Shown here: positions 3,017 to 25,550 of the stretch, in pieces | How the letters are laid out: each line of letters begins with the position of its first letter | Numbering within the stretch: the stretch's first letter is position 1 | DNA from: a gamma proteobacterium symbiont of Bathyaustriella thionipta | GTDB taxonomy: Bacteria > Pseudomonadota > Gammaproteobacteria > GRL18 | Assembly: GCA_025656775.1 (NCBI GenBank) | Contig: JAHXHI010000104.1 | Location: 1-34,774 of the forward strand | Direction of reading: 5' to 3' | DNA: 34,774 bases | The notes under the pieces: generated by a model | The model's database searches: none | What the model saw: only the letters and a program-made list of their open reading frames with translations | What the model was told of the DNA's origin: nothing | Translations under genes and position numbers: made by a program

Positions 3017-3331
3017 ATGTCATATTATTCAAAACATGTTTTTTTCTGTACCAATGATCGGGAGGATGGCGGGCCGTGCTGTCAACGTTTTAATACCCGA
3101 AAAATGCGTAAATATGTTAAAAATAAATGTAAAGAACTGGGGATTCATGGCGAAGATCAAGTACGCATCAATAGCGGTGGTTGTATGGGACGTTGTAATG
3201 AAGGCCCAGTGATTGTAGTTTACCCAGAAGCTATTTGGTATACCTTTGTTGATGAAGAAGACCTCGATGAAATCATACAACAGCACTTGTTAAAAGGACA
3301 AATTGTTCAACGATTACAATTACCAGGCTAA
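3017..3331 (+). CDS. Thioredoxin-like [2Fe-2S] ferredoxin domain protein
   Basis: HVFFCTNDREDGGPCCQ...RINSGGCMGRCNEGPVIVVYPEAIWYTFV, characteristic of stand-alone (2Fe-2S) ferredoxins. Confidence 0.9.
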   Translation: MSYYSKHVFFCTNDREDGGPCCQRFNTRKMRKYVKNKCKELGIHGEDQVRINSGGCMGRCNEGPVIVVYPEAIWYTFVDEEDLDEIIQQHLLKGQIVQRLQLPG

Positions 3332-3400: not shown

Positions 3401-3429
3401 TTGACATACAGGAGCTATATAAGTATATT
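3401..3429 (+). promoter_or_regulatory. Predicted sigma70 promoter of an intergenic sRNA unit
   Basis: TTGACA (3401-3406), 17-nt spacer, TATATT (3424-3429). Confidence 0.65.
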
Positions 3430-3435
3430 ATTATT

Positions 3436-3546
3436 CAACTGATTACTGTTCACATGATGTGACAGCAGTTATTTTATACCTCCATCCTCCTTTGGTGGTT
3501 TTTAAAATGGCGCAGCTCCCCCCCCTTAGTTGCGCCTTATTTTTTT
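3436..3546 (+). ncRNA. Putative C-rich / anti-Shine-Dalgarno small RNA
   Basis: Three successive hairpins: AACTG..CAGTT (3437-3470); ACCtCCA-[TCCTCCTT]-TGGtGGT (3478-3499) with anti-SD loop; GGCGCAGCT-[CCCCCCCCTT]-AGTTGCGCC (3509-3536) followed by TTATTTTTTT. 5' end inferred from the promoter. Confidence 0.6.
3509..3546 (+). terminator. Rho-independent terminator with C8 loop
   Basis: 9-bp stem GGCGCAGCT/AGTTGCGCC (one G-U pair) and T-rich tail. Confidence 0.85.
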
Positions 3547-3820: not shown

Positions 3821-4249
3821 ATGAAGACATATAGTGCGAAACCAGAAACTGTTGAACGTGACTGGTATATCGTTGATGCTGAAAACAAAACCCTGGGTCG
3901 TCTGTCAACAGAAATTGCCAGACGTCTTCGTGGTAAACATAAACCAGAATACACTCCTCACGTAGATACAGGTGATTACATTGTTGTGATCAATGCTGAA
4001 AAAGTCTATGTCAGCGGTAACAAAAGAACCGATAAAATGTACCACCACCATACGGGTTATGTCGGTAATTTAAAAAGCATCAGTTTTGACAAGCTGATCG
4101 AAAGAGCACCTGAACGTGTTATTGAGACAGCAGTTAAAGGTATGTTACCTAAAAATCCTTTAGGTCGTGCCATGTACAAGAAGATGAAAGTCTATGCAGG
4201 TAGTGAGCATCCTCATACTGCACAACAACCCAAGACTCTCGAAATATAA
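3821..4249 (+). CDS. rplM: 50S ribosomal protein L13
   Basis: [65 protein letters not shown]-track start at 3785 is upstream of the likely start at 3821. Confidence 0.97.
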
Positions 4250-4295: not shown

Positions 4296-4685
4296 ATGAC
4301 TACTCAATATTATGCAACAGGTCGCCGTAAAAGCTCATCTGCACGCGTTTATTTACGTCCAGGTAAAGGTGACATCACAATTAACAATCGTCCAATTGAA
4401 GTATTCTTTGGTCGTGAAACATCAAGAATGGTCGTTCGTCAGCCTCTGGAATTAACAGAAATGCTGGAAAAGTTTGATGTGATGATTAATGTTAACGGAG
4501 GTGGTATCACCGGTCAGGCGGGTGCAATTCGTCACGGCATTACTCGTGCTCTTATCGAGTATGATGAAGCACTACGTACTCCACTGCGAAAAGCTGGATT
4601 CGTAACACGTGATGCACGTCAGGTCGAACGTAAGAAAATTGGTCTGCATAAAGCACGTAAGCGTCCACAATACTCAAAACGTTAA
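4296..4685 (+). CDS. rpsI: 30S ribosomal protein S9
   Basis: [21 protein letters not shown]...[20 protein letters not shown]; directly follows rplM. Confidence 0.98.
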
Positions 4686-5191: not shown

Positions 5192-6304
5192 ATGAAAAAA
5201 TTAATTGCTGCTGCTGTTGCTGCTGCCGTAATCGCGCCTGTTACTGCGATGGCTTCTGGACCAGTTCTATATGGTAAGTTACAGATGTCTATCAACGCGC
5301 TTGATAACAATGGTTCAACTACTGCCGGAAACGAATATAGCGAAGTCAGCTTAAACTCTAACCACTCACGTCTGGGTATTAAAGGTTCTGAAGACTTAGG
5401 TAATGGCATGAAAGTCGGTTACTTAATCGAGTGGCAGGTTGATATGGATGGTGATGGCAGTAACTCTGGTGGTGCTGATCTGGGTGAACGTAACCGTGCT
5501 GTTACTTTGTCTGGTGACTGGGGTACTATGCTAGCGGGTCGTTGGGATACGCCTGTTAAATCTGTTGGTCGTAAAGTTGATTTATTCCCTGAGCGTTTAG
5601 GTGATAACCGTAACATGAACTCTAACGGTGTTTTATTAGACCTTCGTGTTCCAAATGTACTTGCTTATGTTACTCCAAACATGAACGGCTTTAGCTCTAC
5701 TATTGGTTATGTTTTTGATGCTGGTACTGGTTTTGCTACACCAGGTGCACCTGCTGATAATTCAGACAACTCTGCATTTTCTATCAATGGTATCTATAAC
5801 AACGGTCCTATCTATGTAGGTGTTGGTTACCAGGATGTTTATGATGCTAATGTTGTTGGTTCTGATAACCAGAAGACTATTCGTGTAGCGGGTTCTTATG
5901 CTTTTGGTGATTTCAAAGTACTAGGTAGCTATACTGATGTCAGCAATGCTGGTACAACTGATGGCTGGGATACAGATATCTGGTCACTTGGTGCATCTTA
6001 CAAGATGGGCAACAACACCATTAAAGTACAGCTAACTGAACGTGATGAGTATGATGATGCTAAAGACATGCCTAACAGCGGTGATGAGACAGGTGCTAAG
6101 CAATGGGCAATCGCTCTTGACCACACAATGTCTAAGCGTACTACAGTTTACGTAGAATATGCAGATCTGAGCAACGATGACAATAGTACTTCAAGATCTT
6201 GGGCTGCAGCAGGTGGTAACACTGCAGGCGTAGGTACTAATGCTGCTGGTACTAAAAACCGGGATACTGATGGTTTCGGCGTTGGTATTATCCACAAGTT
6301 CTAA
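5192..6304 (+). CDS. Gram-negative porin (16-strand general porin type)
   Basis: Signal peptide MKKLIAAAVAAAVIAPVTAMA; GPVLYGKLQMSIN start, RNRAVTLSGDWGTMLAGRWDTP, C-terminal ..GVGIIHKF. Confidence 0.92.
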   Translation: MKKLIAAAVAAAVIAPVTAMASGPVLYGKLQMSINALDNNGSTTAGNEYSEVSLNSNHSRLGIKGSEDLGNGMKVGYLIEWQVDMDGDGSNSGGADLGERNRAVTLSGDWGTMLAGRWDTPVKSVGRKVDLFPERLGDNRNMNSNGVLLDLRVPNVLAYVTPNMNGFSSTIGYVFDAGTGFATPGAPADNSDNSAFSINGIYNNGPIYVGVGYQDVYDANVVGSDNQKTIRVAGSYAFGDFKVLGSYTDVSNAGTTDGWDTDIWSLGASYKMGNNTIKVQLTERDEYDDAKDMPNSGDETGAKQWAIALDHTMSKRTTVYVEYADLSNDDNSTSRSWAAAGGNTAGVGTNAAGTKNRDTDGFGVGIIHKF

Positions 6305-6573: not shown

Positions 6574-7293
6574 CTAGCAATGATTTTCTTTTCTAAGCTT
6601 GTATTGAGCTGATTTTCTATCACCGCCGCGTAATGAAGGGGAGGCACGTCTGCCGGTTTGCTTCTCAACTTGTTTTTTAAAGTTCTTTTCACCTAATACC
6701 CATGCTTTATTGGTTGTTGTGCGAATTTCCTCTAATGTCTTATCGTTTAATTCTTGAGCAAATAATGTCAGGTAGGCTGTTTGTCTTTCTTTATCGGTAT
6801 TACCAAGAGACTGATAGCAAGCATGTGGAGTAATAAGATTGACATTTTTCCCCAGGGCATTTTTTTTAAAACTGGACCAGGGGTAATCTGCAGGGTGTGA
6901 TACCATCTGTGCTCGAACAGGATTCAATTCAATATAACGACTAACCGTTAATAAATAGTTTTCACTATCTACGAGTGTTGATTTAAATCGGCCTTCCCAT
7001 AATGTACCACTTCGTTGGTATGTTTGATTAATATAACGCACATAATATCGACCTAGAGATTGAAGTAACCGACTTACGCCTTCTGAATCCTCTGGAGTTA
7101 AAAGTAAATGGACATGATTGGTCATTAATATATAACTGTGAATTTGAACTTTATATTTTTTACTGTATTCATTGAGTTTATCTAAATAAACAGTATAGTC
7201 TTGCTCAGAAAAAAAGCAGGCCTGATGATTATTACCCCTCTGAATAACATGTTGAGGGATTCCTGGTAAATTGAGTCGTGGTAATCTTGCCAT
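6574..7293 (-). CDS. REP-associated tyrosine transposase (Y1_Tnp / IS200-like)
   Basis: MARLPRLNLPGIPQHVIQRGNNHQACFF, MTNHVHLLLTPED (HUH motif), GTLWEGRFKSTLVDSENYLLTVSRYIELNPVRA. Confidence 0.95.
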   Translation of the reverse strand: MARLPRLNLPGIPQHVIQRGNNHQACFFSEQDYTVYLDKLNEYSKKYKVQIHSYILMTNHVHLLLTPEDSEGVSRLLQSLGRYYVRYINQTYQRSGTLWEGRFKSTLVDSENYLLTVSRYIELNPVRAQMVSHPADYPWSSFKKNALGKNVNLITPHACYQSLGNTDKERQTAYLTLFAQELNDKTLEEIRTTTNKAWVLGEKNFKKQVEKQTGRRASPSLRGGDRKSAQYKLRKENHC

Positions 7294-14885: not shown

Positions 14886-15090
14886 AGGTGGAAGAACAAT
14901 CTAAACCGTCGCTCACTTTCGCTCTTGAACCTATCGGTTCAAGTGGAGATATGACTGATCAATTAGGCTTTCTGCTCTCTTTCTATGAAAGGGCAGGCAT
15001 GCACACATGATCAGGCGCGCATCTCCGGGGTAAAAGATTACGGCTCAAGAAGTACCCAGTAGCTAACTTGTTCAGGTAGAACTTCCACAC
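14886..15090 (-). ncRNA. ssrS: 6S RNA
   Basis: Between zapA and fau on the minus strand; contains CTTGAACCgatAGGTTCAAG hairpin as in enterobacterial 6S; closing stem GTGGAAG/CTTCCAC brackets the RNA. Ends approximate. Confidence 0.85.
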
Positions 15091-25272: not shown

Positions 25273-25360
25273 CTGTTTTATCAGTTTGAAGGTAATGCGA
25301 TCGACAAAGAGTATTTGCCTGCTAATTAAATAAACGGTATCATTACCCGCTCGATGCATA

Positions 25361-25550
25361 TCTGTATGGGAGAGAATGATTGTCAGCAATCATCACCGAA
25401 GGCGCAACTCACCCGGAAACGCTCAGGTTTCAGAACTGTACAGACCCAGGAATTTATTGATAATTCCTCGTTGACTCTGGAGAGAGATTGTAAGGTATCA
25501 ATCCACCGAAGGGGCTTAAGCTCTCAGGTAGTTGGACAGAGGGGTGAAAA
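25361..25550 (+). promoter_or_regulatory. Tandem glycine riboswitch
   Basis: Two aptamer-like units: gggagagaatg...atcaccgaaggcgcaac...ctcaggtttcagaactgtacaga and ctggagagagattg...atccaccgaaggggcttaagctctcaggtagttggacagaggggtg; upstream of gcv genes. Confidence 0.93.

Follow-up and report, generated by a model that had tools for sequence, protein, structure and literature searches.

What lies in the gap between a ferredoxin gene and rplM in this symbiont genome, and to which described RNAs is it related? The initial annotation of the window (the whole 34.8-kb stretch of DNA analysed here) placed an independent small RNA (sRNA) unit in this gap, consisting of a promoter, a first hairpin, a second hairpin with an anti-Shine-Dalgarno (anti-SD) loop and a third hairpin that acts as an intrinsic terminator, and we recovered each of these elements at the positions proposed (Table 1). 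The 160-nt fold has a predicted energy of −36.7 kcal/mol, compared with −23.1 ± 2.9 kcal/mol for shuffled sequences (z −4.6; 0 of 200 shuffles as good). Within 2 kb no sigma70-like site matches better than this promoter, and its TTGAC is retained in 131 of 162 distinct homologous upstream regions versus 7.6% of random stretches from the same loci. Transcription would start at about 3435–3438. CCTCCTT and a run of eight C residues (C8) each occur once in the window, both inside the unit. As a sequence, the gap contains what looks like a complete transcription unit, from which an independently transcribed RNA of ~110 nt is predicted. A small coding ORF was considered and rejected: reading frames that cross the unit are unanchored or contain interruptions, and from relative to relative the length of the C run differs by single bases.

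Table 1. Features of the sRNA locus, its gene neighbourhood and other elements in the window.
Feature	Position	Strand	Evidence or remark
coq7, upstream neighbour common with S17-type loci	993–1643	−	PF03232
2Fe-2S ferredoxin gene, upstream neighbour	3017–3331	+	PF01257 weak, below cut-off; syntenic in relatives
sigma70-type promoter, TTGACA-N17-TATATT	3401–3429	+	11/12 consensus matches; TTGAC kept upstream of homologues
Hairpin 1, variable 5' domain	3437–3470	+	Fold; both-sided changes at two pairs among close relatives
Hairpin 2, anti-SD loop UCCUCCUU	3478–3499	+	Fold; core invariant in L001–L018
Conserved core CUCCAUCCUCCUUUGGUGG	3480–3498	+	Exact 19-mer in at least 118 named contigs
Intrinsic terminator, with T tail	3509–3546	+	Fold; compensatory changes in 4 pairs
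Terminator stem	3509–3517/3528–3536	+	Fold
Terminator C8 loop	3518–3525	+	Fold
rplM (L13), downstream neighbour	3821–4249	+	PF00572
rpsI (S9), downstream of rplM	4296–4685	+	ORF; position, homology to searched loci, tblastn neighbours
IS200-like Y1 transposase ORF	6574–7293	−	PF01797; possibly REP-associated
6S RNA	14894–15081	−	RF00013, 51.3 bits
Tandem glycine riboswitch aptamers	25357–25549	+	RF00504

Conservation of the stems and loops relative to the flanking DNA had been set beforehand as a test of the annotation. BLAST matches within the same genus and family span about query positions 15/16 to 145–150 of 160 and end at the edges of the unit, so that conservation is bounded by the promoter and the terminator while the spacing to rplM varies, and in the comparative alignment four pairs of the terminator stem carry changes on both sides. 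The both-sided changes in hairpin 1 are a weak signal, and in other genera different stable hairpins stand in its place. Exact copies of the 19-base core CTCCATCCTCCTTTGGTGG occur in at least 118 contigs from named genomes, mostly sulfur-oxidising Gammaproteobacteria, in a list of copies chosen by exact identity to this core. The carriers include Thiothrix, Beggiatoa, Thiomargarita, Thiocapsa, Chromatium and Halochromatium, and further Thioalkalivibrio, Sedimenticola, Thiodiazotropha and Arenicella. The annotation had also advised a covariance search in related genomes. Of 369 genomes sampled from the class, 131 matched our model R1, built from hairpin 2 and the terminator of the sRNA, at E ≤ 0.01, a threshold at which a few of the 131 are chance matches (visibly unrelated ones were set aside by eye). 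In a phylum sample, 3 of the 16 genomes with a match lay outside the class. The proposed anti-SD loop of hairpin 2 was borne out, with UCCUCC preserved in all 65 of the less selected class matches. CTC stands directly before CTCC in 99 of 120 named copies, and we therefore write the family core as CUCCUCCAUCCUCCUUUGGUGG; the window has ACCUCC instead. The conservation test speaks for the annotation, and judged from these comparisons the sRNA gene is real and widely conserved.

Some copies are arranged differently. Three tandem sRNA cores lie at positions 5785–6024 (+) of L116, a Thiotrichaceae contig, and tandem copies were likewise observed in G380, G295, G195 and G163. In L074, L109 and L129 the core is preceded by a different common sequence, CCAAAGGCAGTATCGYAGTAG, which suggests an exchanged 5' domain.

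Hairpin 2 can be drawn in two registers, namely that of the initial annotation and CCAUC[CUCCUUU]GGUGG, the form drawn for the Rfam family RF02278. The former is 2.4 kcal/mol more stable in the window itself. Over 36 variants, 95.0% of cells are paired in the RF02278 register versus 87.2% in the other, and pair 9–19 of the RF02278 register occurs as UG, UA and CG and is never broken. Because shuffle controls of hairpin 2 covariation were not significant for either register, only the percentage of pairing and the variant pair 9–19 favour the RF02278 form. Most bases of CUCCUU are exposed in either register.

The C8 loop of the terminator, which the annotation had put forward as a second pairing seed, is not shared across the family. 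Of 120 distinct named copies, 75 have 1–3 C residues as their longest run ahead of the tail, and in seven of the 120 the run reaches at least 8; within the genus and family of the window the run in the terminator loop is 8–11 long. The C8 loop is peculiar to this genus and family; conservation lies in the CUCC stretch and in the UCCUCCUU loop. An RNA that mainly sequesters a protein recognising C-rich loops, or that acts as an RNA sponge, would be in keeping with the several C-rich loops, including the C8–C11 terminator loop in the genus; we regard this as quite unlikely, given that conservation of the C run ends with the genus and family and that the anti-SD loop is the invariant part.

The gammaproteobacterial copies are often flanked upstream by a divergent coq7 and downstream by rplM-rpsI. 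The gene rplM follows within 1 kb on the same strand, at a median distance of about 230 nt, in 50 of 120 named copies, a position that would also suit an element acting in cis, as a leader or attenuator of rplM-rpsI, and not in trans as an sRNA. Such a leader would always precede rplM and lack a terminator of its own. The unit, however, does have such a terminator at its end, and in 49 of the 120 named copies rplM is missing from the first kb although more than 1.5 kb of downstream sequence is available. In addition, the L017 copy adjoins tgt/queA-like ORFs, tandem copies exist, and the betaproteobacterial homologues are stand-alone sRNAs (PMC5688073). We therefore consider a cis-acting leader very improbable.

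The homology of the sRNA extends to RNAs described from Betaproteobacteria. Rfam at gathering thresholds gave no match at the sRNA locus, and RF02278 (Betaproteobacteria toxic sRNA; cut-off 50 bits) did not match the window even at E ≤ 10. At a permissive threshold, RF02278 matches gammaproteobacterial copies at the same coordinates in many genomes, with up to 48.7 bits, and a bridging sequence, L288 (CUCCUCCAUCCUCCUCCUUUGGUGGAUU), scores 65.6 bits. The wider family of Bordetella pertussis S17 and Burkholderia cenocepacia ncS27 is defined by a CUCC stretch, a hairpin with a UCCUCCU-type loop and a terminator hairpin, all of which are present here, and by a location at coq7 or rplM-rpsI, which is likewise found. 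S17 of B. pertussis adjoins coq7 (PMC11722255). Among loci over the RF02278 cut-off, L286 and L287 precede rplM-rpsI by ~270 nt, and coq7 is the neighbour of L285 and L295; the 'beta' label of such single loci is taken from RF02278 score and neighbourhood, not from taxonomy. This location is the strongest point for the kinship.

Because of the sub-cut-off RF02278 matches, the intermediates and the synteny, we place the gammaproteobacterial sRNA as an ortholog in the wider S17/ncS27 family. Short C-rich motifs recur in the sRNAs of other groups (sX13, CcsR) and the gammaproteobacterial copies stay under the RF02278 cut-off, both of which would agree with a convergence of anti-SD hairpins in an unrelated family. 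The stem-loop sequence in common with few inserted bases, the intermediates and the common coq7/rplM neighbourhood argue against convergence and make it unlikely. The annotation's term 'undescribed' holds for the gammaproteobacterial branch but not for the family, as the RNA belongs with RF02278/S17/ncS27 by sequence, architecture and neighbourhood. No description of gammaproteobacterial versions of S17/ncS27-type RNAs was found in the literature searched. The extension of the family suggests that both the name and the cut-off of RF02278 are drawn too narrowly.

The betaproteobacterial relatives give an indication of function. S17 represses via sites complementary to ribosome-binding sites (RBS) (PMC11722255), growth is slowed when ncS27 is overexpressed, and targets in amino-acid and carbohydrate uptake are predicted for the double-hairpin RNAs (PMC5688073). 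From the sequence and from these experiments we infer SD pairing: an sRNA of ~110 nt, made from its own promoter and ended at its own terminator, would pair through the exposed UCCUCCUU loop and the neighbouring CUCC stretch with purine-rich SD sequences in a restricted set of mRNAs, and would block ribosome binding on mRNAs with strong SDs. We consider it likely that the sRNA is the gammaproteobacterial ortholog of the RF02278/S17/ncS27 double-hairpin RNAs and an SD-pairing repressor of this limited kind. In the genome to which the window belongs (G000), AAGGAGG, the perfect complement of the anti-SD motif, precedes ATG (N3–9) 16 times, versus 19 times for a reversed-pattern control, so that genome-wide strong-SD enrichment was not detected; the 16S 3' end pattern was not found in this draft genome. 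Because AAGGAGG-ATG is rare and not above the reversed control, SD pairing should be selective and global titration is not favoured. Of the global translational repressor that had been suggested, the repressor is probable by homology with the relatives, and the truly global SD titration is not favoured.

Genes with strong SDs include dsrA (TIGR02064 above cut-off), ccoO, nuoK and a gene for a diheme cytochrome c. Within the genus, AAGGAGG is conserved before ccoO in eight of the nine closest copies and before the diheme cytochrome c gene in all nine; before dsrA it is found in some copies only. Upstream of the diheme cytochrome c gene (L377–L385), a small hairpin encloses AAGGAGG; its stem reads GGTC/GACC in some relatives and GATC/GATC in others, and the computed duplex energy of this site with the sRNA core is −21 to −27 kcal/mol. 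We hypothesize that dsrA, ccoO and the diheme cytochrome c gene, which were picked as targets after looking, would be repressed, the sRNA acting as a brake on sulfur oxidation and respiration. Conserved strong SDs can also reflect high expression alone, and the drafts of G001, G006 and G009, which have conserved cytochrome sites, gave no convincing sRNA match. As a separate observation, L317 encodes at 541–1503 (−) a Met/Gly-rich, collagen-like protein that looks secreted and whose gene has a strong SD; that this is a sulfur-globule protein is a guess. A more far-reaching and tentative scenario, which we hold to be doubtful, is that an ancient anti-SD sRNA at coq7-rplM predates the split of Beta- and Gammaproteobacteria and that sulfur-oxidising Gammaproteobacteria retained it to restrain sulfur oxidation and respiration at the level of translation through these three genes; for one of them the contact would be a loop-loop interaction with an SD that sits in a covarying RBS hairpin.

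An sRNA family reported only from Betaproteobacteria now extends to a large part of the Gammaproteobacteria. The gammaproteobacterial hosts include purple sulfur bacteria, relatives of Beggiatoa and Thiothrix, and bivalve symbionts, for which no base-pairing sRNA is described in the literature searched. The cultivable carriers Thiocapsa, Thioalkalivibrio and Thiothrix are hosts for testing SD-mimic regulation of energy metabolism.

Several other sRNA families resemble the RNA described here. NmsRA of Neisseria acts via anti-SD motifs on TCA-cycle genes, and mutations in these motifs relieved the slow growth that NmsRA causes in E. coli (PMC5362039). NmsRA and NmsRB (RF02877) are alike in having two anti-SD motifs, tandem copies and repression by RBS pairing, which is known for them and predicted here, but they differ in gene neighbourhood. 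None of the loci scanned exceeded the RF02877 cut-off of 52 bits (best 26.4 and 25.9 bits in L017 and L015), and the suspected Neisseria-like loci L264 and L290 gave weak matches to R1 and RF02278. The sRNA sX13 of Xanthomonas has three hairpins with C-rich loops, as does the gammaproteobacterial sRNA, and targets G-rich stretches close to start codons (PMC3771888). It differs in its CCCC/CCCCC loops, in place of UCCUCCUU here, and is reported only in Xanthomonadaceae; in the window, poly-C is confined to the terminator loop instead of occurring as CCCC-type loops in three hairpins, and no homology between sX13 and the gammaproteobacterial sRNA was found. The CcsR1, ar14 and cuckoo RNAs of Alphaproteobacteria carry CCUCC-type anti-SD motifs in their loops. 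These motifs are common to the present sRNA, and the initial annotation had drawn its comparison with this group; the matches are weak and sub-cut-off (RF02791, CcsR1: 24.7 bits versus a cut-off of 65.3), so that membership was rejected. R1 is almost absent outside the class (3 other genomes of the phylum). The nearest kin of the present sRNA are instead found among RNAs of Beta- and Gammaproteobacteria. Compared with RF02278, S17 and the B. cenocepacia RNAs ncS03, ncS05, ncS27 and ncS62, the gammaproteobacterial sRNA falls below the Rfam cut-off, has a loop region about 3–4 nt shorter, an extra hairpin 1 and its own promoter close upstream, and in the window it carries ACCUCC rather than CUCCUCC together with the C8 terminator loop; common to all of them are the CUCC 5' stretch, the anti-SD hairpin, the terminator hairpin and the coq7 or rplM neighbourhood.
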